Positions 15,092 through 55,871 of a stretch of DNA of 64,000 nt are shown piece by piece. Source of the stretch: Xestospongia bergquistia (Eukaryota > Porifera > Demospongiae > Haplosclerida > Petrosiidae). The notes under the pieces were generated by a model. The model was not told the DNA's origin and searched no databases. It saw only the letters and a program-made list of their open reading frames with translations. The position numbers and the translations under genes were made by a program. Location of the stretch: positions 868,001 through 932,000 of the forward strand of contig OZ014424.1 of the NCBI GenBank assembly GCA_963965975.1, given 5' to 3'. Every line of letters starts with the position of its first letter. The stretch's first letter is position 1.

Positions 15092-15183
15092 TCACATTGT
15101 ATGTGGTGTACAGACAGGAACAAAAGGTAACTAAATATGTAGAACAAGTTGTCTTTTGATATATTGATTGTTTGTAGGCCATT
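15092..15183 (+). promoter_or_regulatory. Conserved 5' UTR with non-coding intron, ankyrin-family copy 1
   Basis: The block from CACATTGTATGTGGTGTACA to the ATG recurs with small changes upstream of all five copies (about 25,950, 29,480, 42,175 and 55,425). It contains a predicted 51-bp intron (15127-15177, GTAACT...TTTGTAG) ending six bases before the start codon. In copy 3 the intron donor region is partly deleted. Conservation suggests it carries the transcription start and first splice of the family. Confidence 0.6.
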
Positions 15184-18100
15184 ATGATTGATATCTCTCA
15201 ATGGAGAGCTAGTATTGGGTTATGGTATTGTCATCATATACCATATACTACTAAAAAGACTCCTTCTACCACTAATATCCCTGGATGGATAAAGTCACTA
15301 TTGATGTCAAGAGATGAGGGTGGTTGTACTTTGATATTCTCTCTAGTTTTGTTTCTCTTACTTCTTCTCATTTTATCAGGTGATATTGAACTCAACCCTG
15401 GACCTAAAACAGGTCAATAAATATTAAAACATATAACTGATGGAATAATGATTCAATTTACTTCAATAGAGTTAACATCAAATAATGCTCTACGACTGCT
15501 CGTTAAGAGTGGTTTTGTTGTTGAAGATAAATGGAATAAACTCACTAGTTTTCTAGGTGTGTCACTGGAAGAGAGGAGAAGACTCAAGAAAGTGGTCAGC
15601 AGTGATCAAGACTACCACTTTGCTTTAGAAGAAGGTTTACAATGGTGGATTACTAATGGTACTGCCCCTTGTTGGGAAGAACTCATTTCAGCTGTTGAAA
15701 GTTGTGGTGATAAGTGTATAGCTACTACACTGAGAAGACAACTAGATATTAAAGATGAAGGTATCTACTATGTATAGTTCATTATGCATTAAATAATTAT
15801 CAATGTAGTATAATAGTTTAGTAAAGTACATAACAAGGTATATTCTATTGATTTCATATATTGAAGGACACAGTTAGTCTTTTGGTACAGTTCTGGTATG
15901 ATTTACCTTTTAAAAGGAGTGGAACTAGATTGATAGTTCAATCATCTAAATTCAATCCTTGCATCTTCTTTTTTATACCAAGGGCAAGCAGGACAGAAAG
16001 AAGGAATAAGTGGTCAGGTCGGAGGCCAGAGTTTTTCTTCCTGTGATAAATACGTATATGGTGACACAGAGGGTACCAGTGCTATAGAAAGTGATGAAGT
16101 TTGCAAAGTATTGAAGAGTGTTCTGACGAGCCATTTTGCTGACTTAAGTAGCCAGTTAAGTAGATGTTTACCACGAGTTTCTGCAGCAATGTACTCTAAA
16201 AGACTGATAAGTGAATCTGTCAGAGATTCTCCAACTGTTTACAATGTTATTGGTGAATTTGAAAGTGGAATGAGATTAGCAGACAGTATTTCGAAGTTAC
16301 AAGAACATTGTCAACTTTTCTTACAATGTCTATCCAGTGAAGGTGGTCCTACTAAATTAGCTGCTCAAAAGTTATGTCAAGACTGGATAGAAGAAGTCAA
16401 AAAGCAATGTGATATCTCACTAGATCTTACATGTGATGAACAGGATATTAAACAACAAGGTCAGTATTGTAAAGTGATGGTAGTCCATATTTTTGGGATG
16501 AAGTGTCACAAATATGTATTGTTCTCATTATTAAAATTGCCTTATCCAATAGAATTACTATAGTATAGTAACATTCCAAATTTCCAATAGAATTCTTGTC
16601 ACAGCTGTTATGTGTGAATTTAATGATAACAAACAAAGCAAGTTGTGACAAGTATGTACTCCCTCATAGTTATAATAATATTTAAATGTATACATCCAGT
16701 AGTTAGTCACAAACTATTATTAATTGACCAAACTAAGAAACTAACTAACTGATTATGTAAGAGCTGTTATGTAATGTGAAATGATGACCTAAACTGTATT
16801 TGACTATACTCTTAGGAATAATTAAATAATTAATCTACAGTCAAACTATAGGTAGGAACACTATATTATAATGGGAAACGTGATCATTATAACTATTATT
16901 GTATCACTTATTATATAACTAATTTAGTTCATTGGATGTGTAATGAAAATGCATTTCTTTGTCAACTAATTTCTTTATTGCTAGCTGAGCTTTATGCATA
17001 CCAGGCAGTCCTATAATTGTGTTACTTATGTGCATATATTGCACCAAAGTATTCTCTGAGAAAGTCCATTGCATATACAGTACATTAGTACTGTAATTCC
17101 TTAAATAGAAACCTCTTCTGAATAGAGGCGCAGTCTTGAATTGAGGCAAGGTATAAACTGGGCCAAATAATAAATAAAGTTTTTACTAATTTGCAGTACA
17201 AAGAATCTACTTAATAGTAGTTGTGTGTGAAATGAGACTAGTGGATATACATGTCCATGTAGAGATTATTTCTAAATGTTGATATAATTTTTTTTATGTA
17301 GAAAACAATGATAAAGTTATTCAAGTGGGTCATACAATAACTTCCAATGAGAATGGAGTGCCTACATCATGTCAAGATGTAAAGTCTGCATCTACAGAAA
17401 CATCTCAAACACTTAATACCTCTTTACCAACAACTTCAGTACAATCAACTACTTCCCAAGGTATGTTAAAATTTCTTTAAAGATCTCATTATAATACATC
17501 TTTGTAGCCTCTAGAATTCATCAAGAAAAAGTAGAAGTAGAACAAGAGAAGGAAAAGGAACTTCAAACGTCTTTACAGAGTTTACATCAAAACTTCAGTG
17601 AATTGATAGTTGCTGTTAGATCAGCTCTTAATCATAAGCTACAGCAACAACTATTACAATTAGAAGATGTCACAATATTTATTAAGTATGAATTATATTG
17701 GGTTGAAGAGTTGAGTGACATCAACAAATGTAATGACTTAGATGAACTCTTCAAGAAACTACATCCATATTTTGACTTCTTAGACTGTGAATTGATTGTT
17801 CGTGTGAGTGAAAAGTTTCTCAATGATGAGTATTTTGGGGAAGACAAGAAAAACATAGTCAATGAACTTAAAGAACATATAGATAAAGGTAAGATTTTAC
17901 GTTGCTCAATTACTGTGAAACAACTCAAAAATCAACTAAAAAGCATATACACCCCACATCTAGGAGATATATCAAACATGCCTCAAATTTACATTGAATT
18001 ACACGATCCATGGAATGATGCCAATATTCAAGGACTTTACCTACTTGTCGGGCATTTACTTCCAAATAAATTAAAACAATCGCTTTTGGAGTATATCACA

Positions 18101-21100
18101 ATTGATACGGGTTCGGTTCGTATTAAATACATTGTCCATGAATCAAAAGCTGATTGTCTCATAGCTTATGCTCAAGGCAAGCTACAGTTTATGCGTCTCA
18201 TTGGTATCTTTGGTCTATCAATTAATGGTGAACCTATCCTAGAAGATGATGAGAATATGAACTTTACATTTGAGTCAGCTCTTCTTGAAGCTACAAAAGC
18301 TGGTCATAATGAAGCTGTACAATTTCTCCTCAAGTTAGGAGGTGATATAGACCATTGTGATGAAGAAGGCTGTACAGCACTCATGTTAGCTAGTAGAGGT
18401 GGACATGAACAAGTTGTACAAACACTGGTATCAGCTGGAGCTAATATTAACATTCAAGATAATGAAGGCTGGACGGCGCTAATGAGAGCAAGTGAACATA
18501 ACAATCTTGCAATAGTCAATACTCTCATACAGAATGGTGCTGACCTGAATTTACAGAAATCAAATGGCTCAAATGCATTAATGATTGCAAGTTTGTTTGG
18601 TCATTATGATATTGCTGAAATACTACTACTACTACAGAAAATTGACATTAACTCTCAAAGAAAAGATGGATCAACAGCCCTGATGTTAGCTAGCCTTAAT
18701 GGTCATACACGGGTCATTGAACTGCTACTCAAAGAGAATGCAGAAGTTAATACACAAAATGAAGAAGGATGGACTGCACTAGTGCTGGCAAGTCAAAATG
18801 GTCATACCTATGTTGTTCAAATTCTGCTTAACAATTGTGCGAATGTTAGCATTCAGGCAAAAAATGGATCAACTGCACTATTTCCAGCAAGTAGCAACGG
18901 TCATACTGAGGTTGCTGAACTACTTCTCAAAGAACAGGTGGACATTAATGCTCAGAGAGAAGATGGAGTGACTGCCTTGATGCTAGCTAGTCAAAATGGT
19001 CATACACAGGTTATTGAATTACTCCTCAAAGAGCATGCAGATGTCAATATGCAGAGCAAAAAAGGATCAACAGCCCTAATGCTAGCTAGTCTGAATGGTC
19101 ATACACAGGTAATCGAACTGTTAGTCAAAGAGAATGCAGAAGTGAATATACAAAATGAAGAGGGATGGACTGCTCTAATACTGGTATGTCAAAATGGTCA
19201 TACCCAGGTTGTTGAAATTCTGCTCAAAAATTGTGCAAATGTTAACAGTCAAGCTAAAAATGGATCAACTGCACTACTTTTAGCAAGTAGCAATGGTCAT
19301 ACTGAGGTTGTTGAGCTACTTCTCAAAGAACAGGTGGACATCAATGCTCGGAGAGAAGATGGATCAACAGCCCTAATGCTAGCTAGTCTGAATGGTCATA
19401 CACAGGTCATTGAACTACTACTCAAAGAGCATGCAGATGTCAATATGCAGAGAGATGATAAAGTAACAGCCCTGATGCTAGCTAGTCAAAATGGTCACTT
19501 TCAAGTTGCTGAAACACTCCTTAAAGAGCATGCAGATATCAACATACAGAGCAAAAAAGGATCAACGGCTCTAATGCTAGGTAGTCAAAATGGTCATACC
19601 CAGATTGTTGAACTATTGATTAAGGGAAAAGCAACTGTTAATATTCAAAACAACAATGGAGTAACTGCTTTAATGTCAGCTAGTGCAAAAGGTCATTCTA
19701 ATGTTGTTGAACTACTACTCCTAGAACATGCAGATGTTAATATTGTCGCCAAAAATGGAGTGACTGCTTTAATACTGGCTAGTCTAAAAGGTCAAACTCT
19801 CATTGTTGAATTGCTACTCAAAAATCATGCAGATATTGACATTAAGGAAGAAGATGGCTTTACTGCTCTAATGGTAGCTAGTCAAAATGGTCATACCCAG
19901 ATTGTTGAACTATTGCTTAAGGGAAAGGCAACTGTTAATATTCAAAACAACAATGGAGTAACTGCTTTAATGTCAGCTAGTGCAAAAGGTCATTCTAATG
20001 TTGTTGAACTACTACTCCTAGAACATGCAGATGTTAATATTGTCGCCAAAAATGGAGTGTCTGCTTTAATACTGGCTAGTCTAAAAGGTCAAACTCTCAT
20101 TGTTGAATTACTACTCAAAAATCATGCAGATATTGACATTAAGGAAGAAGATGGCTTTACTGCTCTAATGGTAGCTAGTCAAAATGGTCATACCCAGATT
20201 GTTGAACTATTGCTTAAGGCAAAAGCAACTGTTAATATTCAAAACAACAATGGAGTAACTGCTTTAATGTCAGCTAGTGCAAAAGGTCATTCTAATGTTG
20301 TTGAACTACTACTCCTAGAACATGCAGATGTTAATATTGTCGCCAAAAATGGAGTGTCTGCTTTAATACTGGCTAGTCTAAAAGGTCAAACTCTCATTGT
20401 TGAATTACTACTCAAAAATCATGCAGATATTGACATTAAGGAAGAAGATGGCTTTACTGCTCTAATGGTAGCTAGTCAAAATGGTCATACCCAGATTATT
20501 GAACTATTGATTAAGGGAAAAGCAACTGTTAATGTTCAAAACAACAATGGAGTAACTGCTTTAATGCTAGCTAGTCTAAGTGGTCATTCCTCAGTTGTTG
20601 AATTATTACTCAGGGAGAATGCAGATGTAAATGTAAAGGACAATAATGGAGTAACTGCTTTAATGTTAGCTAGTCTAAGTGGTCATATTCAACTACTATT
20701 TGAAAAAGATAAGACTCAGGTTGAAGATGCTTTTAAAAAGTTAGTACAAAATCGTGATACCCAGAATTTGTTTGAACTACTTCTTAAAGAGGAAGAAACT
20801 TTTAGTATGGACAATGAAGTAAGCAACCAAATACAAGATAGTGGAAATCATTATATCCAGGTTGTTGAACTACTACTGAAAGAACATGCAGATGTTAATA
20901 TTATTACCAAAACTGGAGTGACAGCCCTAATGCTAGCTTGTCTAAAAGGTCAAACTCACATTGTTAAACTGCTACTCAAAGAGAATGTAGATATCAATAT
21001 TCAGGAAGAAGACGGATTTACTGCTCTAATGCTAGCTAGTCAAAATGGTCATACCCAAATTGCTGAACTACTCCTTAAGGAGAAAGCTGGCATAAACATT

Positions 21101-24100
21101 CAAAACAACAATGGAGTAACTGCTTTAATGCTAGCTAGTCTAAGTGGTCATTCCTCAGTTGTTGAATTATTACTCAGGGAGAATGCAGATGTAAATGTAA
21201 AGGACAACAATGGAGTAACTGCTTTAATGTTAGCTAGTCTAAGTGGTCATTCCTCAGTTGTTGAATTATTACTCAGGGAGAATGCAGATGTAAATGTAAA
21301 GGACAATGATGGAGTAACTGCTTTAATGTTAGCTAGTCTAAGTGGTCATATTCAACTACTATTTGAAAAAGTTAAGACTCAGGTTGAAGATGCTTTTAAA
21401 AAGTTAGAACAAAATCGTGATACCCAGAATTTGTTTGAACTACTTCTTAAAGAGAACGAAACTTTTAGTATGGACAATGAAGTAAGCAACCAAGTACAAG
21501 ATAGTGGAAATCATTATATCCAGGTTGTTGAACTACTACTGAAAGAACATGCAGATGTTAATATTATTACCAAAACTGGAGTGACAGCCCTAATGCTAGC
21601 TTGTCTAAAAGGTCAAACTCACATTGTTAAACTGCTACTCAAAGAGAATGTAGATATCAATATTCAGGAAGAAGACGGGTTTACTGCTCTAATGCTAGCT
21701 AGTCAAAATGGTCATACCCAAATTGCTGAACTACTTCTTAAAGAGAAAGCTGGCATAAACATTCAAAACAACAATGGAGTAACTGCTTTAATGCTAGCTA
21801 GTCTAAGTGGTCATTCCTCAGTTGTTGAATTATTACTCAGGGAGAATGCAGATGTAAATGTAAAGGACAATAATGGAGTAACTGCTTTAATGTTAGCTAG
21901 TCTAAGTGGTCATATTCAACTACTATTTGAAAAAGATAAGACTCAGGTTGAAGATGCTTTTAAAAAGTTAGTACAAAATCGTGATACCCAGAATTTGTTT
22001 GAACTACTTCTTAAAGAGAACGAAACTTTTAGTATGGACAATGAAGTAAGCAACCAAATACAAGATAGTGGAAATCATTATATCCAGGTTGTTGAACTAC
22101 TACTGAAAGAACATGCAGATGTTAATATTATTACCAAAACTGGAGTGACAGCCCTAATGCTAGCTTGTCTAAAAGGTCAAACTCACATTGTTAAACTGCT
22201 ACTCAAAGAGAATGTAGATATCAATATTCAGGAAGAAGACGGATTTACTGCTCTAATGCTAGCTAGTCAAAATGGTCATACCCAAATTGCTGAACTACTC
22301 CTTAAGGAGAAAGCTGGCATAAACATTCAAAACAACAATGGAGTAACTGCTTTAATGCTAGCTAGTCTAAGTGGTCATTCCTCAGTTGTTGAATTATTAC
22401 TCAGGGAGAATGCAGATGTAAATGTAAAGGACAACAATGGAGTAACTGCTTTAATGTTAGCTAGTCTAAGTGGTCATTCCTCAGTTGTTGAATTATTACT
22501 CAGGGAGAATGCAGATGTAAATGTAAAGGACAATGATGGAGTAACTGCTTTAATGTTAGCTAGTCTAAGTGGTCATATTCAACTACTATTTGAAAAAGTT
22601 AAGACTCAGGTTGAAGATGCTTTTAAAAAGTTAGAACAAAATCGTGATACCCAGAATTTGTTTGAACTACTTCTTAAAGAGAACGAAACTTTTAGTATGG
22701 ACAATGAAGTAAGCAACCAAATACAAGATAGTGGAAATCATTATATCCAGGTTGTTGAACTACTACTGAAAGAACATGCAGATGTTAATATTATTACCAA
22801 AACTGGAGTGACAGCCCTAATGCTAGCTTGTCTAAAAGGTCAAACTCACATTGTTAAACTGCTACTCAAAGAGAATGTAGATATCAATATTCAGGAAGAA
22901 GACGGGTTTACTGCTCTAATGCTAGCTAGTCAAAATGGTCATACCCAAATTGCTGAACTACTTCTTAAAGAGAAAGCTGGCATAAACATTCAAAACAACA
23001 ATGGAGTAACTGCTTTAATGCTAGCTAGTCTAAGTGGTCATTCCTCAGTTGTTGAATTATTACTCAGGGAAAATGCAGATGTAAATGTAAAGGACAATAA
23101 TGGAGTAACTGCTTTAATGTTAGCTAGTCTAAATGGTCATATTCAACTACTATTTGAAAAAGATAAGACTCAGGTTGAAGATGCTTTTAAAAAGTTAGTA
23201 CAAAATCGTGATACCCAGAATTTGTTTGAACTACTTCTTAAAGAGAACGAAACTTTTAGTATGGACAATGAAGTAAGCAACCAAATACAAGATAGTGGAA
23301 ATCATTATATCCAGGTTGTTGAACTACTACTGAAAGAACATGCAGATGTTAATATTATTACAAAAACTGGAGTGACAGCCCTAATGCTAGCTTGTCTAAA
23401 AGGTCAAACTCACATTGTTAAACTGCTACTCAAAGAGAATGTAGATATCAATATTCAGGAAGAAGACGGGTTTACTGCTCTAATGCTAGCTAGTCAAAAT
23501 GGTCATACCCAAATTGCTGAACTACTTCTTAAAGAGAAAGCTGGCATAAACATTCAAAACAACAATGGAGTAACTGCTTTAATGCTAGCTAGTCAAAATG
23601 GTCATCACCAGGTTGTTGAACTACTACTCAAAGAACATGCCGACGTTAATACTCAAAATGAAAATGGATTGACTGCTCTAATGTTAGCTTGTCACTATAA
23701 ACATTTTAAAGTAGCTCAAATTTTACTTAACTCAAGAGGAGATCCTCATTTGTCAACGCACAATGGAGCAACAGCATTTTTATTAGCTGGTTTTAGTGGT
23801 AACAGAGACATTGTTAATATGCTCTTAGACAAAGTTCAACCCATTCCTGAGGAGATTGAAAAGGCAGTAGTACTATCATGTTTTGGTGGTCACCCTACTC
23901 TCATTACCTTCCTCTCAAACAAACTTCCACACCTCACTAATGACCAGAGAGAACTACTAGACTCATGTGTTAAAGGAGATTTAGCTACAGTTGTATGGAA
24001 GACATTAGATAGTCCAGATACTCCACTGGTACTAGGTCTTACTCCACTCATGGTAGCTTCATCATGTGGACATGTTGATATAGTGGATGCTCTCATACAA

Positions 24101-24748
24101 GCTGGAGCTGATGTCAATAAAGATACCTATCGAGGGTTGACTCCATTGTTTTTTGCAGTAGTAGGAGGTAAATCCACATCAATAGTAGAAACACTCTTAA
24201 AGAATGGTGCTAATCCTAACATTATTGTGAACAAGCAAACAGCATTAGATGATGCTAATATACTTGAATTGGAAACCATTAGCCAACTATTAATTGAGTA
24301 TGGAGGTCAGACAGCATCACAAATACAAGGACAAATTGAAACAGAAGTAAAATCATCATTACTAAGATCTGGTGAAGGGACAACAATGCTTACGTCTGTA
24401 GTAACTAAGACTATTAGTGAGATAGATACATTATCAAGTTGTACTATTAAGACTCCACCAAGTGTATTGCCCAAAGTAGATTTGACATCCATAAATAGTT
24501 TATTTACTCCATCTGACTTAAATTACTCCAGCTACACAATGAAGAGCCACCAAATGAGAATAAATGAAAGAGACCTCACATCCATAAATAGTTCAATGAC
24601 TCCATTTACCTTATATAATTCTAGTTATGATATTAGGAGATTACATGAAAAGGATTTCACTTTCAGACATACAGCATTTACTCAATACAACTTTAGCCGT
24701 ACTGCTACATTTAGAGATCCCTCTATAGTGCAAATATCCTGTTACTGA
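15184..24748 (+). CDS. Giant 2A-death domain-CARD-like-ankyrin protein, copy 1 (intact)
   Basis: Five coding exons, all joined in phase 1: 15184-15412, 15470-15760, 15983-16459, 17302-17460 and 17508-24748, giving 2,798 residues. Residues ~1-76: hydrophobic segment plus 2A motif GDIELNPGP. ~77-173: death-domain fold (KWNKLTSFLGVSLEERRRL, then LQWW and WEELISAVE). ~174-332: CARD-like helical region (YSKRLISESVRDSPTVYNVI). ~333-385: Ser/Thr-rich linker. ~415-635: conserved module (LDELFKKLHPYFDFLDCELI; later YAQGKLQFMRLIGIFGL). ~640-2650: about 50 ankyrin repeats (NGHTQVVELLLKEHADVN type) broken by non-ankyrin inserts. The tail has repeated DLTSINS motifs and ends SCY. The domains suggest an innate-immune or cell-death scaffold; partners are unknown. 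The first ATG and the shared start in all copies fix the N-terminus. No frame lesions were found. Confidence 0.8.
15382..15405 (+). other. 2A ribosome-skipping motif, copy 1
   Basis: Encodes DIELNPGP, matching the consensus D(V/I)ExNPG|P. It is preceded without a gap by the hydrophobic run LIFSLVLFLLLLLILSG. Established knowledge: ribosomes fail to form the final Gly-Pro bond at this motif, releasing the upstream peptide and continuing from Pro. Here that would split a ~72-residue hydrophobic leader from the death-domain/ankyrin protein. Confidence 0.85.
15470..15760 (+). other. Death-domain exon, copy 1
   Basis: A 291-nt symmetrical exon encoding one ~90-residue six-helix death-fold domain: NALRLLVKSGFVVEDKW, LGVSLEERRRLK, FALEEGLQWWITNGTAPCWE, LISAVESCGDK, TLRRQLDIKDE. 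The helix-3 to helix-5 pattern (L.xW, then WEELISAV) is typical of death domains. The flanking phase-1 introns make it skippable without frame change. Confidence 0.75.
15983..16459 (+). other. CARD-like helical exon, copy 1
   Basis: A 477-nt exon. A polar Gly/Gln/Ser-rich start is followed by about 115 residues of amphipathic helices: VLKSVLTSHFADLSSQLSRC, MYSKRLISESVRDSP, KLQEHCQLFLQCLSSEGGP, QKLCQDWIEEVKKQCDISL. The pattern of a start helix, then 'YSKxLIS' and 'SVRxSP', then a leucine-rich helix resembles CARD-type death folds, but I cannot exclude a different helical family. Confidence 0.5.
19582..20476 (+). repeat. 297-bp higher-order ankyrin repeat, three copies
   Basis: A three-ankyrin block (99 codons) is repeated three times almost unchanged. 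The string ATTAAGGAAGAAGATGG occurs at 19841, 20138 and 20435, exactly 297 bp apart. It lies inside the copy-1 ankyrin exon. Confidence 0.92.
20804..23257 (+). repeat. 1,227-bp super-repeat, two copies, inside copy-1 ankyrin exon
   Basis: The marker AGTATGGACAATGAAGTAAG occurs at 20804, 21467, 22031, 22694 and 23258, giving intervals of 663, 564, 663 and 564 bp. The 99-bp difference is exactly one 33-residue ankyrin repeat. The pattern is therefore a 1,227-bp (409-codon) unit duplicated in tandem with very few differences. Each sub-unit also contains a non-ankyrin insert beginning LLFEKDKTQVEDAFKKL. Confidence 0.92.
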
Positions 24749-26042: not shown

Positions 26043-27700
26043 ATGATTGATATCTCTCAATGGAGAGCTAGTATTGGGTTATGGTATTGTCATCATATAC
26101 CATATACCACTAAAAAGACTCCTTCTACCACTGATACCTCCAGATCGATAAAGTCACTATTGATATCAGGAGATGAGGGTGGTGGTACTTTGATATTCTC
26201 TTTAGTTTTGTTTTTCTTACTTCTCCTCATTTTATCAGGTGATGTTGAACTGAAGCCTGGACCTAAACAGGTCAGTAAACATTAAAACATATAACTGATG
26301 AGATGATGGTTTGATTTATTTGGTAATATTGAAGGTGCTAGCTGTGCTACTGAAAGTGATGAAGTTCATAGTGTTGAAGACTGTATTGACAACCAATTTT
26401 GTTGACTTAAGTAACCAGTTAAGTAGATGTTTGCCACAAGTTTCTGCATCAATGTATTCTAAAAGACTGATAAGTGAATCTGTCAGAGATTCTCCAACTG
26501 TTTACAATGTTATTGGTGAATTTAAAAGTGGAATGAGATTATATTAGCTGATAGTATTTCAAAGTTACAAGAACATTGTCAACGTTTCTTACAATGTCTC
26601 TCCAGCGAAGGTGGTCCTACTAAATTACCTGCTCAACAGTTATGTCAAGACTGGATGGAAGAAGTCAAAAAACAATGTGATATCTCACTAGATCTTACAT
26701 GTGATGAACAGGATATTAAACAACAAGGTCAGTAATAGAAAATAGTGGTAGTCCATATTTCTGAGATGAAGTGTCACAAATATGTATTGTTCTTATTATT
26801 AAAATTGTTTTAACCAATAAAATATTTTATAATAATATAATACATTTATAGACTGTTGTATCCATGGAGTAGTACACATTTGTCACAGCTTGCTTTGTTC
26901 ACTACCATTAGTTCACTCAACAGCTGTGACAAGAAATCTATTGGAATGTTACTATACCATAATTATTTTATTGGTTAAAACAATTTTAATAATAAGTTGT
27001 AATAAAAACATTAGATAGTCCAGATACTCCACTGGTACTTGGTCTTACTCCACTTATGATAGCTTCATCATGTGGACATGTTGATATAGTGGATGCTCTC
27101 ATAAAAGCTGGAGCTGATGTTAATAAGCAATTGTCAGAAAATAAGTGGAAACTCACTTCCATTAACTTTGCATTATCAGGAGGCAAATCCCCTTCAATTG
27201 TAAAGACACTCTTAGAAAATAATGCCAGTCCTAATGTCATTGTTGAAAATAAAACAGCTTTAGATTATGCTTATGAGAGCAAACAAGAAACCATCAGCAA
27301 GCTACTAACCAAATATGGAGGTCAAACAGCATCACAATTACAGGAAATAAAAGAATATGAAACTTCGAAACTGAAGTCATCTTTATTGACATGTACAACT
27401 CCAGCAACATCATTACTAACACCTGTGGAATTATCAAGTGAAGTAGCAACCACAGCTAATGTAACATCTTTACTTACACCTACGGATTCAAATGATGTTA
27501 TCACGAGTCAACCAGAGCAAAAAAGAACAGGTTTATTGAATTTTATGTCTAAACTTTTTGATTCATTCACTTCACACATTTTAAACCCTACTCATACGTT
27601 TAAAGATACCAGTGTAAAACAAGACAACAAGAAAGAAGTCAAAGAATTGTATTCTTCCAATAAAATGCTCTTAAATATAATACATACTTTTTCACAATAA
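26043..27700 (+). pseudogene. Ankyrin-family copy 2, internally deleted remnant
   Basis: Remaining parts: the N-terminal exon (26043-26270) with 2A changed to GDVELKPGP and one base lost before the donor; no death-domain exon; a CARD-like piece (26325-26729) with an inserted TATTA-type duplication that frameshifts after SGMRL; an inverted 0.2-kb segment; then directly the family C-terminus (about 27008-27700: last ankyrin repeats GLTPLMIASSCGHVDIVDAL and a tail with ILNPTHTFKDTSVK). Linker, conserved module and nearly all ankyrin repeats are gone. It could produce only fragments. Confidence 0.85.
26795..26994. repeat. Inverted repeat / local inversion in copy 2
   Basis: TTATTAAAATTGTTTTAACC at about 26,795 is matched by its reverse complement at about 26,966-26,994. 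The sequence between (for example AACAGCTGTGACAAGAAATC) is the reverse complement of the collinear sequence downstream of the CARD exon in copies 1, 3 and 4 (for example near 30,955-31,020). So about 150 bp was inverted and one arm duplicated, at the point where the ankyrin exon was lost. Confidence 0.75.
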
Positions 27701-29548: not shown

Positions 29549-32500
29549 ATGATTGATATCTCTCAATGGAGAGCTAGTATTGGGTTATGGTATTGTCATC
29601 ATATACCATATACCACTAAAAAGACTCCTTCTACCACTAATACCCCTGGATGGATAAAGTCACTATTGATATCAGGAGATGAGAGTGGTGGTACTTTGAT
29701 ATTCTCTCTAGTTTTGTTTCTCTTACTTCTCCTCATTTTATCAGGAGATATTGAACTGAACCCTGGACCTAAAACAGGTCAGTAAACATTAAAACATATA
29801 ACTGATGGAATGATGTTTTAATTTATTTCAATAGAGCTGACAGCAATTAATGCTCTACAACTTCTTATTAAGAGTGGTTTTGTTGTTAAAGATAAATGGA
29901 CTGAACTCACTATTCTTCTAGGTGTGTCACTGGATGAGAGGAGAAGACTCCTGACAATGGCCAGCAGTGATCAAAATTTCCACTTTGCTTTAGAAGAAGG
30001 TTTACAATGGTGGATTACAAATGGTACTGCCCCTTGTTGGGAAGAACTCATTTCAGCTGTTGAGAATTGTGGTAATGATGATGTAGCTACTACACTGAGA
30101 AGACAACTAGACATTAAAGATGAAGGTATCTATTATATATAGTTCATTATATACTAGTACTTTAAAATAATTATCAATGTATTTTAATAGTTTAGTAAAG
30201 TACATAACAAGATATATTCTATTGATTTCATATATTGAAGGACACAGTTAGTCTTTTGGTAAATGTCTGGTATATAGCTTACTCCATTAAAAGGAGTGGA
30301 ACTGGATTGATAATTCATGCATCTAAATTCAATCCTCATAAAATCTTTTCCATATCAAGGGCAAACAGAAGGACAAAAAAAAGAAAGAAGTGCCCAGTCT
30401 GGAAAGCAAACATTTTCTTCTTGTGATAAATCTGTATATGGTGACAAAGGAGGTGCTAGTACAACAGAAAGCGATAAAGTTCATAAAGTGTTGAAGAGTG
30501 TACTGACAACCCATTTTGCTGACTTAAGTAACCAGTTAAGTAGATGTTTGCCACAAATTTCTACAGCAATGTATTCTAAAAGACTGATAAGTGAATCAGT
30601 TAGAAAGTCTCCAACTATTGACAGTGTGGTTAGTGAATTTGAAAGTGGAATGAGATTAGCAAACAACATTTCAAAGTTACAAGAACATTGTCAACTTTTC
30701 TTACAATGTTTCTATAGTGAAGGTGGTCCTACTAAATCAGCTGCTCAAAAGTTATGTCAAGACTGGATGGAAGAAGTTAAAAAGCAATGCGATATCTCAC
30801 TAGATCTTACATGTGATGAACAGGATATTAAACAACAAGGTCAGTGATACAAAATAGTGGCAGTCCATATTTCTGAGATGAAGTGTCACAAATATATGTT
30901 GTTCTTATTATTAAAATTGCTTAATCAAATAAAATTACTATAGTACAGTAACATTCCAATAGATTTCTTGTCACAGCTGTTGTGTGTGAATTTTATGATA
31001 GTGAACAAAGCTTGTTGTGACAAGTATGTACTCCCTCATAGTTATAATAGTATTTAAATGTATACATTCAATAGTTCTTCACAACTATTTATTAATTGAC
31101 CAAACTAAGAAACTAACTGATTATGTAAGAGCTATCATATAATGTGAAAGGATGACATAAAACTGTATTTGACCATACTCTTAGGAACAATTAAATATAG
31201 TCAAACTATAGGTAGGAGGAACACTATATTATAATAGGATGTATGATCATTCACAACTATTTTTGTATCACTTATTATAAAGCTAATTAAATTCATTGGA
31301 TGTGCCAGTGAAAAATTCATTTCTTTGTCAACTATAATTTATAATTTCTTTATTGCTGCCCAAGCTTTAAACATAACAGGTAGTCATATAGTTGTTTTAC
31401 TTCTGTGCATATATAGTACAATAGTATTCTATGAGGAATTCCATTTCATAGAAATAAATGGAGGTCCAGTCTTGAATTGAGGCCAGGTATAAACTGAGCC
31501 AAATAGTAAATGGAGATTATACGAATTGATGCTACAAGGAAGCTACTTTACAGTATTTATGTGTGAAATGAGACTAGTGGATATATAATTATGTCCATGT
31601 AGAGATTGTTTCTAATGCTAATATAATATATTCTTATATAGAAAACAGTGATACAGTTATTCAAGTGGATCATACATTGACTTCCAATGAAAATGGAGTA
31701 CCTACATCATGTCTGCAGGATGTAAAGTCTTCTCTAGAAAAATCACAAGAATATATTTTAGCTACAGAAATATCTCAAAAACCTAATACTTGTTTACAAA
31801 CAACTTCAGTACAATCAACTACTTCCCAAGGTATTATAAATTTCTTTGAGTATCTCATTATAATATATCTTTGTAGCCTCTAGCATTCATCAAAAGTAGA
31901 AGTAATAAATAAAGAGAAAGAAATGGAACTTAGAACCTCTTTACAGAATTTACATCAAAACTTCCGTACATTAATAGTTGCTGTTCGATCAGCTCTTAAT
32001 CATAAACTACAACATCAACTACTACAATTAGAAGATGTCACAATATTTATTAAGTATGAACTAGATTGGGTTGAAGAACTGAGTGACATCAACAAATGTA
32101 ATGATTTAGATGAACTTTTCAAGAAACTACATCCATATTTTGACTTCTTAGACTGTGAATTAATTGTTAATGTGAGTGAAGAGTTTCTTAATGATGAATA
32201 TTTTGGGAAAGACAAGAAGAACCTAGTCAGTGAACTTAAAGAACATATGGATAGAGTTGAGACTTTACGTTGCTCATTTACTGTTAAACAACTCAAACAT
32301 CAATTAAAAAGCATATACACTCCACATCTAGGAGATCTAACAAGCATGCCTCAAATTTATATTGAATTACACAATCCATGGAATGATGCCAATGTTCGAG
32401 GACTTTATCTACTAATAGGACATTTACTACCTTACAAGTCAAAGCATTCAATTTTGAAGTATATTGAAATAGAGACAGGCTCAGTTCGTATTAAATATTT

Positions 32501-35500
32501 TGTCCATGAATCAAATGCTGATTGTCTCATAGCTTATGCTCAAGGCAAGCTACAGTTTATGCGTCTCATTGGTATATTTGGTCTAACAATTAATGGTGAA
32601 CGTATCCTAGAAGGTGATGAGAATATGAACTTCACATTTGAGTCAGCTCTTCTTGAAGCTACAAAAGCTGGTCATAATGAAGCTGTACAATTTCTCCTGA
32701 AGTTAGGAGGTGATGTAGACCATTGTGATGAAGAAGGCAGTACAGCACTTATGTTAGCTAGTAACAGGGGACATGTACAAGTTGTACAAACACTAGTATC
32801 AGCTGGAGCTAATGTTAACATTCAAGATAACGATGGATGGACAGCACTTATGAGAGCAAGTGAACATAGCAATCTTACAATAGTCAATACTCTCATACAG
32901 AATGGTGCTGACCCAAATTACCCACAGAAATCAAATTGCTCAAATGCATTAATGATTGCAAGTTTTTGTGGTCATTATGATATTGTTCAAGTACTACTAC
33001 AACAGAAGATTGATATTAACTATCAAAGAAAAGATGGAGTGACTGCTCTAATACTAGCTAGTATGAATGGTCACACACAGGTTGTTGAACTGCTATTCAA
33101 AGAGAATGCAGAAGTAAATACTCTGGAAGAAAAAGGACGGACTGCACTAATGCTGGCATGTGAAAATGGTCATACACAGGTTGTTAAAATTCTGCTTAAT
33201 AATAATGTGAATGCTAGCATTCAGGCGAAAAATGGATTGACTGCACTAATGTCAGCAAGTAGCAATGGTCATACTGAGGTTGTTGAACTACTTCTCAAAG
33301 AACAGGTGAACATCAATGCTCAGAGAGAAGATGGAGTGACAGCCCTAATGCTAGGTAGTCAAAATGGTCATACACAGGTTGTTAAATTACTCGTCAAAGA
33401 GCATGCAGATGTCAATATGCAGAGAGATGACAAAGTAACAGCCCTAATGTTAGCTAGTCATAATGGTCACTTTCAAATCACTGAAATACTCCTTAAAGAA
33501 TATGCAGATATTAACATACAGAGCAAAAAAGGATCAACAGCCCTAATGCTAGCTAGTTTGAATGGTCATACACAGGTTGTTGAATTACTTCTCAAAGAGC
33601 ATGCAGATGTCAATATGCAGAGAGATGACAAAGCAACAGCCGTAATGCTAGCTAGTCAAAATGGTCATACACAGGTTGTTGAATTACTCGTCAAAGAGCA
33701 TGCAGATGTCAATATGCAGAGAGATGACAAAGTAACAGCCCTTATGCTTGCTAGTCATAACGGTCACTTTCAAATTGCTGAAATACTCCTTAAAGAGCAT
33801 GCAGATATTAACATACAGAGCATAAAAGGATCAACAGCTCTAATGCTAGCTAGTTTGAATGGTCATACACAGGTTGTTGAACTGCTACTTAAAGAGAATT
33901 TAGATATTAATATTCAGGAAGAAGATGGATTTACTGCTCTAATGCTAGCTAGTCAAAATGGTCATACCGAGATTGCTGAACTGTTGCTTAAGGGAAAGGC
34001 AACTATTAATATTCAAAACAACAATGGAGTAACTGCTTTAATGTTAGCTAGTGCAAAAAGTCATGCTGATGTTGTTGAACTACTACTCAAAGAGAATGCA
34101 GATGTTAACATTGTTGCAAAAAATGGATCGACTGCACTAATGTCAGCAAGTAGCAATGGTCATACTGAGGTTGTTGAACTACTTCTCAAAGAACAGGTGA
34201 ACATCAATGCTCAGAGAGAAGACGGAGTGACAGCCCTAATGCTAGGTAGTCAATATGGTCATACACAGGTTGTTGAATTACTCGTCAAAGAGCATGCAAA
34301 TGTCAATATGCAGAGAGATGACAAAGTAACAGCCCTTATGCTTGCTAGTCATAATGGTCACTTTCAAATCGCTGAAATACTCCTTAAAGAACATGCAGAT
34401 ATTAACATACAGAGCAAAAAAGGATCAACAGCTCTAATGCTAGCTAGTTTGAATGGTCATACACAGGTTGTTGAATTACTCGTCAAAGAGCATGCAGATG
34501 TCAATATGCAGAGAGATGACAAAGTAACAGCCCTAATGCTAGCTAGTCAAAATGGTCATACACAGGTTGTTGAATTACTCGTCAAAGAGCATGCAGATGT
34601 CAATATGCAGAGAGATGACAAAGTAACAGCCCTTATGCTTGCTAGTCATAATGGTCACTTTCAAATCGCTGAAATCCTTTTTAAAGAAGATGCAGATATT
34701 AACATACAGAGCAAAAAAGGATCAACAGCCCTAATGCTAGCTAGTCAAAATGGTCATACACAGGTTGTTAAATTACTTGTCAAAGAGCATGCAGATGTCA
34801 ATATGCAGAGAGATGACAAAGTAACAGCCCTAATGCTAGCTAGTCAAAATGGTCATACACAGGTTGTTGAATTACTCGTCAAAGAGCATGCAGATGTCAA
34901 TATGCAGAGAGATGATAAAGTAACAGCCCTAATGCTAGCTAGTCAAAATGGTCATACACAGGTTGTTGAATTACTCGTCAAAGAGCATGCAGATGTCAAT
35001 ATGCAGAGAGATGACAAAGTAACAGCCCTTATGCTTGCTAGTCATAATGGTCACTTTCAAATCACTGAAATACTCCTTAAAGAACATGCAGATATTAACA
35101 TACAGAGCAAAAAAGGATCAACAGCTCTAATGCTAGCTAGTTTGAATGGTCATACACAGGTTGTTGAACTGCTACTCAAAGAGAATTTAGATATTAATAT
35201 TCAGGAAGAAGATGGATTTACTGCTCTAATGCTAGCTAGTCAAAATGGTCATACTGAGATTGCTGAACTGTTGCTTAAGGGAAAGGCAACTATTAATATT
35301 CAAAACAACAATGGAGTAACTGCTTTAATATTAGCTAGTGCAAAAAGTCATGCTGATGTTGTTGAACTACTACTCAAAGAGAATGCAGATGTTAACATTG
35401 TTGCAAAAAATGGAGTGACTGCTCTAATGCTAGCTTGTTTAAATGGTCTCATCCAGGTTACTGAACTACTACTCAATGAGCATGAGAGTGTTAATATTCA

Positions 35501-38500
35501 AGAAGAAAATGGTCATACTAAGGTTGTTGAGCTGCTACTTAGAGAGCATGCAGACGTTAATATTATCGACAAAAATGGAATGACAGCACTAACACTAGCT
35601 AGTCTAAGTGGTCATGTCCAGATAGTTAAATTACTACTAAAGGAGCATGCAGATGTTAATGTTATTATTGAAAAATTAAATGGAATGACAACCTTAATGC
35701 TAGCTAGTCTAGGTGGTCATACTGGGATTGTTGAGCTACTAATAAAAGAGCATGCAGATGTTAATATTGCCACCAAAAACGGATTGACAGCTTTAATGCT
35801 AGCTAGTCTAAAAGGTCAAACTAACGTTGTTGAATTGCTACTCAAAGAGAATGCAGAAATTAATATTCAGGAAGAAGATGGCTTTACTGCTCTAATGCTA
35901 GCTAGTCAAAATGGTCATACCCAGATTGTTGAACTATTGCTTAATGAAGAAGCAACTATTAATATTCAAAATAACAATGGAGTAACTGCTTTAATGTTAG
36001 CTAGCGCAAAAGGCCACGTTGATGTTGTTGAACTACTACTAAAAGAACATGCAGATGTTAATATTGTCGCCAAAAATGGAGTCACTGCTTTAATACTGGC
36101 TAGTCTAAAAGGTCAAACTAACGTTGTTGAATTACTACTCAAACATCATGCAGATATCAACATAAAGGAAGAAGATGGCTTTACAGCTCTAATGCTAGCT
36201 AGTCAAAATGGTCATACCCAAATTGCTGAGTTACTGCTTAAAGAACAAGCAACTATTAATATTCAAAACAACAATGGAGCAACTGCTTTAATGTTAGCTA
36301 GTCTAAATTGTCATTCCCCAGTTGTTGAATTATTACTCAGGGAGAATGCAGATGTCAATGTAAAGGACAATAATGGAGTTACTGCGTTAATGCTAGCTAG
36401 TCTAAGTGGTCATATTCAACTACTATTTGAAAAAGTTAAGACTCAGCTAGAAGATGCTTTCAAAACGTTAGTACAAAATTGTGATACCCATCAGAATTTT
36501 GTTGAACTACTCCTTAAAGACAAAGAAGCTATTAGTATGGACAATGAAGTAACCAACCAAATGCAAGCTAATGGAAGTCATTATTCCCATGTTGTTGAAC
36601 TACTACTTAAAGAACATGCAGATGTTAATATTATTACTAAAACTGGAGTGACAGCCTTAATGCTAGCTTGTCTAAAAGGTCTAACTCACGTTGTTAAACT
36701 GCTACTAAAAGAGAATGTAGATATCAACGTTCAGGAAGAAGATGGCTTTACTGCTCTAATGCTAGCTAGTCAAAATGGTCATACCCAGATTGTTGAACTA
36801 TTGCTTAATGAAGAAGCAACAATTAATATTCAAAATAACAATGGAGTAACTGCTTTAATGTTAGCTAGTGCAAAAGGCCATGTTGATGTTGTTGAACTAC
36901 TACTAAAAGAACATGCAGATGTTAATATTGTCGCCAAAAATGGAGTCACTGCTTTAATACTGGCTAGTCTAAAAGGTCAAACTCACGTTGTTGAATTACT
37001 ACTCAAAGAGAATGCAGAAATTAATATTCAGGAAGAAGATGGCTTTACTGCTCTAATGCTAGCTAGTCAAAATGGTCATACCCAAATTGCTGAGTTACTG
37101 CTTAAAGAACAAGCAACTATTAATATTCAAAACAACAATGGAGTAACTGCTTTAATGTTAGCTAGTCTAAATTGTCATTCCCCAGTTGTTGAATTATTAC
37201 TCAGGGAGAATGCAGATGTCAATGTAAAGGACAATAATGGAGTTACTGCCTTAATGCTAGCTAGTCTAAGTGGTCATATTCAACTACTACTTGAAAAAGT
37301 TATGACTCAGCTAGAAGATGCTTTCAAAATGTTAGTACAAAATTGTGATACCCATCAGAAGTTTGTTGAACTACTCCTTAATAACAAAGAAACTATTAGT
37401 ATGGACAATGAAGTAACCAACCAAATGCAAGCTAATGGAAGTCATTGTTCCCATGTTGTTGAACTACTACTTAAAGAACATGCAGATGTTAATATTATTA
37501 CTAAAACTGGAGTGACAGCCTTAATGCTAGCTTGTCTAAAAGGTCAAACTCACGTTGTTAAACTGCTACTAAAAGAGAATGTAGATATCAACGTTCAGGA
37601 AGAAAATGGCTTTACTGCTCTAATGCTAGCTAGTCAAAATGGTCATACCCAGATTGTTGAACTATTGATTATGGAAGAAGCAACTATTAACATTCAAAAT
37701 AACAATGGAGTAACTGCTTTAATGTCAGCTAGTGCAAAAGGCCACATTGATGTTGTTGAACTACTACTAAAAGAACATGCAGATGTTAATATTGTCACTA
37801 AAAATGGAATCACTGCTTTAATACTGGCTAGTCTAAAAGGTCAAACTCACGTTGTTGAATTACTACTCAAAGAGAATGCAGAAATTAATATTCAGGAAGA
37901 AGATGGCTTTACTGCTCTAATGCTAGCTAGTCAAAATGGTCATACCCAGATTGTTGAACTATTGCTTAATGAAGAAGCAACTATTAATATTCAAAATAAC
38001 AATGGAGTAACTGCTTTAATGTTAGCTAGCGCAAAAGGCCACGTTGATGTTGTTGAACTACTACTAAAAGAACACGCTGATGTTAACACTCTTACAAAAG
38101 ATGGAGTGACTGCTCTAATGTTAGCTAGTGAAAATGGTCATACTCAGATTGTTGAACTATTGCTTAATGGAAAAACAACTGTTAATATTCAAAACAACAA
38201 TGGAGTAACTGCTTTAATGTCAGCTAGTGCAAAAGGCCATGTTGATGTTGTTGAAATTCTACTAAAAGAACATGCTGATGTTAACATTGTTGCCAAAAAT
38301 GGAGTGACAGCTCTAATCCTAGCTAGTCTAGAAGGTCAAACTCGCATTATTAAATTACTACTCAAAGAGAATGCAGATCTTGATGTTCAAGAAGAAGATG
38401 GCTTTACTGCTCTAATGTTAGCTAGTCAAAATGGTCATACCCAGATTGCTGAACTATTGCTTAAAGGAAAAGCAACAATTAATATTCAAAACAACAATGG

Positions 38501-42267: not shown

Positions 42268-45200
42268 ATGATTGATGTCTCTCAATGGAGAGCTAGTATT
42301 GGTTATGGTATTGTCATCATATACCATATACCACTAAAAAGACTCCTTCTACCACTGATACCCCTGGATGGATAAAGTCACTATTGACATCAGGAAATGA
42401 GGGTGGTGGTACTTTGATATTCTCTCTAGTTTTGTTTTTCTTACTTCTCCTCATTTTATCAGGAGATATTGAACTCAACCCTGGACCTAAAACAGGTCAG
42501 TAAACATTAAAAACATATAACTGATAGGATGATGTTTCAATTTATTTTAATAGAGTTAACATCAAACAATGCTCTACAAGTTCTTGTTAAGAGTGGTTTT
42601 GTTGTTAAAAACAAGTGGAATGAACTCACTATTCTTCTAGGTGTGTCATTGGAGGAGAGAAGAAGACTCAAGACAATGGCCAGCAGTGATCAAGACTACC
42701 ACTTTGCATTAGAAGAAGGTTTACAATGGTGGATTGCAAATGGTACTTCCCCCTCTTGGGAAGAACTCATTTCAGCTGTTGAGAATTGTAGTGATGTTGA
42801 TATAGCTACTACGCTAAGAAGACAACTTGATGTTAAAGATGAAGGTATCTATTATGTATAGTTCATTTTATACTAGTACTTTAAAATAATTATCAATGTA
42901 GTATAATTGTTTAGTAAAGTACATAACAAGGTATATTCTATTGATTTCATATATTGAAGGACACAGTTAGTATTTTGGTAAATGTCTGGTATATAGCTTA
43001 CTCCATTAAAAGGAGTGGAACTGAATTGATAATTCATGCATCTAAATTCAATCCTCATAACATCTTTTCCATACCAAGAACAAACAGAAGGACAAGAAAA
43101 GAAAGAAGTGGTCAGGTTGGAAGCAAGACTTTTTCTTCTTGTGATAAATCTGTATATGGTGACATTGAAGGTACCAGTGCTATAGAAAGTGATGAAGTTC
43201 ATAAAGTGTTGAAGAGTATTCTGACAAACCATTTTTCTGACTTAAGTAACCAACTAAATAGATGTTTATCACGAGTTTCTGCATCAATGTATTCTAAAAA
43301 ATTGATAAGTGAATCAGTCAGAGATTCTCCAACTGTTTACAATATAATTGGTGAATTTGAAAGTGGAATGAGATTAGCAAGCAATATTTCAAAGTTACAA
43401 GAACATTGTCAACTTTTCTTACAATGTCTCTCCAGTGAAGGTGGTCCTACTGAATTAGCTGCTCAAAAGTTGTCAAGACTGGATGGAAGATTTAAAAAGC
43501 AATGTGATATCTCACTAGATCTTACATGTGATGAACAGGATATTATACAACAAGGTCAGTGATATATAATGATGGTAGTCCTTATTTTTGAGATGAAGTG
43601 TCACAAATATGTATTGTTCTCCTTATTAAAATTATTTTAACCAATAAAATAACAATAGTATAGTAACATTCTAATAGATTTCTTGTCATAGCTGTTATGT
43701 GTGAACTTATGATAGTGAACAAAGCTAGCTTGTGACAAGTGTGCACTACTCCACAGATGCAATAATCTATAATTGTATTATAATTATTATAAAGTAAAGT
43801 TCAATATATTATTATATTATGTATATAAACATACATACCACATATTATATGTAAACATCATATACTCTAATCTATGAAGGAATTTACTCTTGTACTATAA
43901 TGTTCATAATGTGATGATTATCAGAGAATCTAATAGCAACTAGTGGTTAGTAGAAAAGTTCATATTATTACTGATTTTTCTACACCTTGTAGAAAATGTA
44001 GTGCCATATAGTTCTTAATTAACATTTCACATTACTGTAGTCTTATCAATACTATTGCCATAATATAATAATTGTCAAGAGTAGCTGTTATAATACTAGT
44101 ACTTTCCTAAGTGTAATGTGATTATATTGTATACCAGTATTGGTAGCTTATGTACATATAACATATATTCTTCATTCCAGATACACATCATTACATAGAT
44201 ATCATTGACCACCTGTTGATGCTACCAATTTTATGCTAATAAGATTCTACATAAGTACTTGTAATTACTTCCACATAGAGTCTTATGTATAAACACCAGT
44301 ATATATAACAATGATCATTCATTATTACAATGTACTCTATTTTGGCAAAGTCTTAATAGTATATGAATGGCAGTTTCGTCTATTACAAAAACAGTCAAAT
44401 TGGTAATAAAAATAAAGTCACATTATTTGACAAAAATTAGCTCCTTCACAGCAAATTAAAAGTTATTACAGTTGATGATTTGTGCACTATTAGTGACACA
44501 ATGTATCACTTGTTCAGCAGTGTGATGGAGGAGTACAATATTGGTAATTAATTATTCATAAGTAATAAATAATTGATTACTCAATAACTACTCTACATAA
44601 ATGAAGCATTCAACATTATGGGTCTAGTTATTTGAGGTGTAGCTCTACAGAGCTGGTATTTTTCTGAGACTTGAGTAGTTTCTTAACCAATGGATTATCT
44701 GAGAGATTTTAGCAAACTCTTTCGCTGTATTCACTTTATGGCATACACCAAATAATATACTTGTAACACATTCCTACAAAATTAACTTAAATTGTGTTTG
44801 CTGAATGTGTATAAGTTTTGGGCTATATAACTGTATGTAGTACTAAGACAAATTCTTTACTGAATGTATTACTTGTATCAGTTAATGTTAATTTCATTGC
44901 TATTCTCTATAGTTTTTCTTCTTGAACAAAATGATAAGTTTTTACATTTTGATTTACTAACTGTAGATGGGCAACTGCAAAAATAACAGTCACTCCAGAT
45001 GATCCTGTAGCTGAAAACTTGAAACGTTTGTACAAAAAATTTGTAGATTTAGTTGAAAATACCAAAAAGGCTCTCAACACTTCAATTGAAGAGAAAACAT
45101 ATACATTTAATGGCATTGCAAGTTATCTTGGAGAATATTCCCGAATAAAAGGGCTAACCAATACTACTGATATAAACAACCTATTTGAGACCCTTTGGCC

Positions 45201-55512: not shown

Positions 55513-55694
55513 ATGATTGATGTCTCTCAATGGAGAGCCAGTATTGGGTTATGGTATTGTCATCATATACCATACACCACTAAAATGACTCCTTCTACCA
55601 CTGATACCCCTGGATGGATAAAGTCACTATTGACATCAGGAAATGAGGGTGGTGGTACTTTGATATTCTCTCTAGTTTTGTTTCTCTTACTTCT

Positions 55695-55734
55695 CCTCAT
55701 TTTATCAGGAGATATTGAGCTCAACCCTGGACCT
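55695..55734 (+). other. Hydrophobic run plus 2A motif, copy 5
   Basis: LLLLILSGDIELNPGP, full consensus. Here it would splice directly to the CARD-like exon (…GPKTG-ASVSKNN). Confidence 0.8.
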
Positions 55735-55871
55735 AAAACAGGTCAGTAAACATTAAAACAACTAGACATTAAAGATGAAGGTATCTACTATAGTTCATTA
55801 TATACTAGTACTTTAAAATAATTATCAATCTAGTATAATTGTTTAGTAAAGTACATAACAATTGATTTCAT

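Follow-up and report, generated by a model that had tools for sequence, protein, structure and literature searches.

What does a first exon ending in a ribosome-skipping StopGo (2A) motif do in front of a death-domain gene, and is it peculiar to one gene family? The question arises in a window of 64,000 nucleotides (G000:C14:868001-932000) from a sponge genome, of which 146 Mb on 21 contigs were scanned here. A sequence-only reading had proposed that a 2A leader is fused to a death-domain/ankyrin family in this window.

The leader exon at 15184 and its neighbouring copies

All window features described below lie on the forward strand. Exon 1 of the candidate gene (15184..15412) runs from the ATG for 76 codons plus 1 nt and ends in phase 1; its sequence is MIDISQWRASIGLWYCHHIPYTTKKTPSTTNIPGWIKSLLMSRDEGGCTLIFSLVLFLLLLLILSGDIELNPGPKT. 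An N-box, MIDISQWRASIGLWYC (15184..15231), which is kept among leader relatives, precedes a hydrophobic run, GCTLIFSLVLFLLLLLILSG (15322..15381), which contains the upstream hexapeptide LLILSG. The StopGo core DIELNPGP (15382..15405) is located next in the leader frame, with the break between its last Gly and Pro, and it conforms to the core set (D/G/C/N)(V/I)ExNPGP given in the available part of Li et al. 2026 (PMC12846837). The leader is separated from exon 2, a phase 1-1 death-domain exon (15470..15760), by an intron of 57 nt (15413..15469, GT..AG) that contains TAA in frame. The model continues with two putative exons, exon 3 (15983..16459, without a Pfam match) and exon 4 (17302..17460). 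It ends with the long exon 5 (17508..24748), which reaches the stop codon and consists of ankyrin repeats for most of its length. All four introns of the model start with GT and end with AG, and the five predicted exons, joined from 15184 to 24748, give a single frame of 2798 codons with the ankyrin repeats at its end. Every element of the junction that had been proposed was found in place: the ATG, the hydrophobic run, DIELNPGP, the GT donor at 15413, the AG before 15470, phase 1, and the death exon. A pyrimidine-rich, acceptor-like TTTGTAG stands directly 5' of the ATG in many leaders of contig C14, including the one described here (window 15160-15184), and a 5' UTR intron may be suspected from it upstream of the leader exon.

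The window death exon alone gave no PF00531 match. Eight of 14 members of its family matched PF00531 at E<=0.1 (best 5.3e-5), and a profile of the family gave 13 weak matches to solved structures (E 0.05-1), including the death domains of PIDD, FADD, and p84/THOC1. The predicted fold of the window exon has six helices (pLDDT 85.7). The eight best PDB matches of this fold are all death domains (prob 0.98-1.00, TM 0.63-0.69, E 0.13 or worse), and the top 16 are death domains as well (TM 0.54-0.69), none having an E below 0.1. On the family profile and the structural model, exon 2 is accepted as a death domain. Pfam searches with exon 3, with a GTPase-like frame on contig C4, and with the region resembling exon 3 at locus L090 returned no match.

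The window holds five leader copies, at 15184, 26043, 29549, 42268, and 55513. The statement that each family copy possesses the leader exon applies to three of them, whose leaders are intact; the other two are degraded or frameshifted. The copy at 26043..26267 reads DVELKPGP (N to K) and loses its frame just past the core, and no death exon was found for it. The leader at 29549..29777 is intact and is in frame, via a 57-nt intron, with a death-domain exon at 29835..30125. Phase-1 joining to a death domain had been proposed for copies 1 and 3, which is correct when all five copies are counted. As joined, the 29549 copy meets a stop at codon 402, where its ankyrin exon begins; this stop may reflect a pseudogene, another acceptor, or an assembly error. 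The ankyrin exon itself (window 31877-40094) has its own frame open for 2736 codons. The copy at 42268..42495 contains the core and has a 1-nt deletion, with the frame lost from the ATG; its death-domain exon is located at 42554..42844. The leader exon at 55513..55741 is intact, and its death exon has been deleted to a 26-nt remnant (55755..55780). An acceptor at 56386 would put this leader in frame with its third exon. Among the five window leaders, a gene model open throughout was obtained only for the 15184 copy. The tandem copies are young; therefore, part of their likeness is due to recent duplication.

Leader exons across the genome and the genes behind them

The StopGo core pattern has 161 exact sites in the 146-Mb genome, and the reversed-pattern control has 0; the occurrence of the core is not due to chance. 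A query with the leader protein gave at least 150 genome matches (150 of 192 candidates were scored), of which 10 have internal stops and some are partial. Their common layout is the N-box MIDxxQWRxxIGLWxC, a drifting linker, and then the hydrophobic run with the core, and the leaders measure 62-78 residues up to the end of the core. In an alignment of 25 chosen leaders, most of which were picked because the core is present, E, N, P, G, and P of the core are invariant, D is nearly so, and p15 varies. In the N-box of the same leaders, M1, I2, W7, R8, and G12 are invariant, and Q6 and W14 nearly so.

Of 62 unique leaders, 57 have a splice donor exactly 7 nt past the core; therefore, the exon normally stops in phase 1, with two codons plus one base beyond NPGP. 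In 30 of the 57 leaders with this standard donor, a death exon comes next in the same frame. The introns between them measure 47-57 nt, apart from a single one with 199 nt. Sixteen of the 30 introns have a length other than 57 nt, and in 14 of them this length is not divisible by three; splicing is therefore the most economical means of preserving the frame. A purine occupies position -3 of the leader start codon in 54 of 54 cases, and in 48 of these 54 the 60 nt upstream contain an in-frame stop.

The leader family is probably present outside this assembly. A profile search elsewhere gave 702 exon-sized proteins at E<=0.01, and simple expressions detected the N-box in all 120 of those listed and an intact core in 116. 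Since the 702 proteins represent clusters formed at 90% identity and are more numerous than the leaders of this genome, the family probably extends beyond it. A search with the distant leader L073 for wider spread gave three relatives, 88-90% identical, by a method that needs shared exact words and is weak for absence. A viral source of the leader was considered and dropped, as a scan of viral_contigs gave 15 pattern matches without any relative.

The 2A leader had been described as a feature of death-ankyrin genes. The in-frame joining stands, and the restriction to this family does not: the leader also lies 5' of NACHT, GBP-type, and caspase-like sequences. All 150 leaders were compared with 95 NACHT matches and 98 window-type death-exon matches, partial ones included. 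A same-strand leader is present within 8 kb upstream of 47 of the 95 NACHT matches and 81 of the 98 death exons, with one case in each opposite-strand control. For the 15 GBP and 15 caspase places entered, out of 27 GBP and 99 caspase-family places, the counts are 5 and 3, with controls of 0. Viewed from the leader, at least one compared domain (type-2 death included, see below) occurs within 8 kb and before the next leader for 109 of the 150, and none for 41. Three of these 41, on C4, were read by eye and have divergent death-like exons downstream; one of the three loci also has a GTPase-like frame.

Eight loci of 7.5 kb were read, with Pfam on ten frames, and NACHT was found downstream of the leader in L092 and L094. 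L094:1-7501 (G000:C11:418200-425700) has two tandem leaders, the first of which precedes a CARD-like exon, a death exon, and NACHT; the CARD match is weak and below the cut-off. The 51-nt intron behind the second L094 leader has no stop, so this leader and its death exon form one open frame even when unspliced. At L089 (G000:C3:1593500-1601000), the leader is followed by a death-like exon and then by a GBP-type GTPase frame, and a later frame ends in a hydrophobic segment. At L091 (G000:C4:753950-761450), a caspase-family frame stands behind a GVELNPGP leader, and its end resembles a later repeated, cysteine-bearing, fibrinogen-like frame without a Pfam name.

Many comparable genes have no leader. 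This applies to 48 of the 95 NACHT matches, counted by listed leaders, 29 of which are on C2. The region G000:C2:8.83-9.15 Mb holds a cluster of 29 NACHT matches with zero leader matches, and these NLRs without StopGo form a natural comparison group. A second, divergent (type-2) death-domain type, assigned by eye and alignment, numbered 874 candidates genome-wide at first look, of which 150 were scored, and these scored exons mostly have no nearby leader. The candidates would amount to a very large death-fold expansion. Pfam at 0.01 gave no match on three type-2 exons (L087, L089, and L092). A leader is present within 3 kb upstream of 21 of the 150 listed type-2 exons. Since the 48 NACHT matches and most listed type-2 death exons have no leader, such genes can function without one. 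Two wider generalizations were rejected, that the leader belongs to all NLRs, by the C2 cluster, and that it belongs to all death domains, by the type-2 count.

Constraint on the leader and the predicted StopGo reaction

Across 61 leaders, dN/dS by segment was 0.10 (core), 0.23 (N-box), 0.27 (hydrophobic run), and 0.85 (linker); the search expression demanded the core and part of the N-box, and these two values are biased low. A query of residues 1-44, without the 2A, provides a check free of this selection bias. It gave 126 genome matches, and 65 of them lie in regions for which the core-site list (100 of 161 listed) is complete. An exact core was found 60-330 nt downstream in 56 of the 65, with 55 in frame at 59-70 codons. 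The nine others are, by eye, frameshifted, truncated, or stop-ridden. This comparison used 68 of the 100 listed sites; retroelement-like and other-contig sites were left out, and none of them is near the nine misses. With the full-leader query in the same fully listed region, an exact core is present in 75 of 89 matches and absent from 14. Two open leaders, L081 and L104, have the altered core GVELNPGP. These sequence comparisons indicate that the leader exon is under constraint at both ends and drifts in its middle, and recent duplication alone is a poor explanation for a linker that drifts between constrained ends.

These results bear on whether the leader might be an ordinary signal anchor, with NPGP merely its boundary and sponge ribosomes passing it without skipping. 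A membrane-type segment is conserved in the leader, and the available part of PMC12909245 treats sponge NLRs that have predicted transmembrane segments as membrane-bound. However, the core is exact in 56 of the 65 leaders that were found without it, next to a linker that drifts with a dN/dS of 0.85. In the 25 leaders chosen mostly for their core, variation at p15 accompanies invariant E, N, P, G, and P and a nearly invariant D, and in 57 of 62 leaders the spacing between core and exon end is constant. We regard an anchor without skipping as improbable.

In StopGo, the growing peptide itself causes its release at Gly, after which the ribosome continues from Pro; the available text of PMC12846837 describes the reaction as rare among cellular genes. 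In that text, the L-rich viral classes 2 and 6 have an upstream hexapeptide ending in SG, D at p12, and Ser at p15, and mutation of characteristic residues in the four tested classes removed nearly all activity in almost all cases. The sponge leader resembles these classes in the form of its core, in the L-rich hexapeptide ending in SG, and in D at p12. LLILSG fits the L-rich upstream class, which terminates in (A/S/C)G and has D at p12; the window copy contains this hexapeptide, as do 104 of the 116 listed relatives with an intact core. The viral elements stand at polyprotein junctions and favour Ser at p15, whereas here the signal lies in a cellular first exon and p15 is Leu in 111 of the 116. 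Ser at p15 is a preference in PMC12846837 and no core requirement; because of the difference, skipping efficiency cannot be transferred from viral elements to the leader. Gly at p12 is allowed in the published core but is paired with other upstream motifs (PMC12846837, available part); therefore, the GVELNPGP leaders L081 and L104 may or may not skip.

We think it fairly probable that exon 1 is a modular StopGo leader, kept by selection and common to many NLR, death, and immune-type genes, which is released while translation resumes. The DNA itself shows the module, the position and phase of its exon boundary, its occurrence in front of several gene classes, and the constraint at both ends; the leader genes would be transcribed and spliced in vivo, and skipping and membrane insertion would follow. 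In the window gene, no stop codon would be needed for the ribosome to release a leader of 73 residues, with ...DIELNPG at its end, and to resume at Pro74. The downstream product would start with P-K-T-E-L-T and be a separate cytosolic receptor or adaptor, with the death domain at its extreme N-terminus. The hydrophobic run ends about 7 residues before the break; thus, at the moment of release, the exit tunnel would still enclose it. This suggests that the leader would insert post-translationally, like a small tail-anchored membrane peptide. Efficient skipping would be the main outcome, and an unskipped, membrane-routed minority form would be possible and secondary.

The constraint on the N-box exceeds what StopGo would need, since the N-box of the window copy ends 57 residues before the break, and it hints at a job for the leader peptide. 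The released leader may itself be functional, with the N-box as a common trans-acting arm of these genes, for example in anchoring, translation-stress sensing, or restraint of death-fold assembly; we offer this as a tentative idea. If it is true, there would probably be more than 100 versions of one small membrane peptide, each made one-for-one with a different immune or cell-death protein. The AlphaFold model of the leader (pLDDT 62.5) only hints at helices. An amphipathic helix in the N-box was rejected, its moment being 0.16 against a shuffle mean of 0.25.

Relation to 2A sequences in other genes

NLRs of Strongylocentrotus purpuratus possess an N-terminal 2A of about 26 residues, for which recoding and a signal function were shown (Roulston et al. 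2016, PMC4981915, available part). The precedent cited in the sequence-only reading is therefore genuine. The same part of that paper gives 14 of 87 NCBI entries for 2A in NLR proteins and also states 85 of 241. In both animals, the core is at the N-terminus of NLR-type proteins with a death domain and NACHT, and a predicted signal sequence is found at the core. A 2A near the N-terminus of NLRs is seen here for 47 of 95 NACHT matches, and L092 and L094 read as leader and then NACHT from DNA alone. In contrast to the sea-urchin sequence of about 26 residues at the very start of NLR proteins, the sponge leaders have 62-78 residues and are bipartite, with an N-box, in a separate phase-1 exon that serves several gene classes. 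Whereas N-terminal 2A on NLRs is known from sea urchin, the longer bipartite exon and the broader gene classes appear to be new.

Where skipping fails, the full-length protein could be directed into the secretory pathway, as described in the part of PMC4981915 cited above. It may be supposed that dual targeting is the very purpose, so that skipping is deliberately partial and unskipped protein is taken to the ER or membrane via the signal anchor of the leader. This supposition presupposes skipping and overlaps with the modular StopGo leader. It accords with the sea-urchin N-terminal 2A, which skips and acts as a signal in mammalian and plant cells (PMC4981915, available part), and with the strength of the hydrophobic run (best 19-residue Kyte-Doolittle mean, median 2.68, 62 leaders). 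The available parts of two further papers report membrane NLRs in sponges (PMC12909245) and a Dysidea NLR with a predicted transmembrane domain that is induced by microbial patterns (PMC6208332). However, the hydrophobic run coincides partly with the L-rich element needed for StopGo and is therefore no independent evidence of membrane targeting. The sea-urchin leader has about 26 residues, whereas those described here have 62-78, with the hydrophobic window starting from about residue 50. Moreover, without skipping, about a dozen residues would separate the death domain from the membrane, and the domain might face the lumen. Dual targeting as a purpose thus seems to us rather doubtful, and we retain the modular leader with efficient release.

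Expanded NACHT genes in the NLR repertoire of Amphimedon were reportedly described by Yuen et al. in 2014. In Dysidea avara, expanded NACHT genes with death or CARD domains and transmembrane NLRs have been reported, and membrane NLRs are said there to have been first reported in Amphimedon (PMC12909245, available part). No mention of a 2A-like sequence or ribosome skipping was found in that part of the Dysidea paper. The sponge NLR repertoires resemble the genes described here in their expanded NACHT genes, death or CARD domains, and membrane-type segment; the difference is that the segment is here part of a StopGo leader. The leader may be the membrane segment of the published Amphimedon membrane NLRs. 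A literature search on 2A or NPGP in sponges, Porifera, or NACHT proteins, with most subscription journals outside its scope, found no report of such a leader. Rao et al. 2025 scanned viral and cellular proteomes, according to the available text of PMC12846837.

In an early-branching animal, one leader exon stands 5' of about half of the NACHT matches and most of the window-type death exons found, and it covers several receptor and effector classes. If the leader works, StopGo would be a host regulatory device at the scale of a gene repertoire, and the published membrane-bound sponge NLRs would have a simple reading. Two products are then predicted, with the death domain exposed at a new N-terminus.

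The genome also contains 2A cores outside the leader family. Among 11 fetched core sites without a leader match (L069-L079), L070 and L073 are leader-like, five are retroelement-like, and four are others (L072, L074, L077, and L078). The five (L069, L071, L075, L076, and L079, on C1 and C4) have 2A cores without an N-box, followed by PHD-like cysteine motifs recognized by eye. Odon et al. are said to have described, in 2013, 2A sequences in non-LTR retrotransposons of animal genomes. Such elements share with the present case a 2A core in an animal genome, and retroelement-like 2A frames occur here too. Exon 1 might accordingly be seen as a functionless retrotransposon remnant, captured once and spread by tandem duplication. 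The published 2A-bearing non-LTR elements (Odon 2013, as far as that source is available) and the frames with PHD-like cysteine motifs recognized by eye in this same genome fit such an origin. However, the five frames have no N-box and lead to PHD-like cysteine motifs, not to death, NACHT, or GBP sequences. The leader is constrained at both ends with a drifting middle, and coreless leaders mostly look frame-broken too. We consider a functionless remnant very improbable. By eye, no RT or PHD-like frames were seen behind the N-box leaders whose 7 kb downstream were read; 150 of 1023 RT candidates were scored, and 10 places from this list were compared with the leaders. The retroelement-like frames, judged by eye, are a second, separate use of 2A in the same genome.
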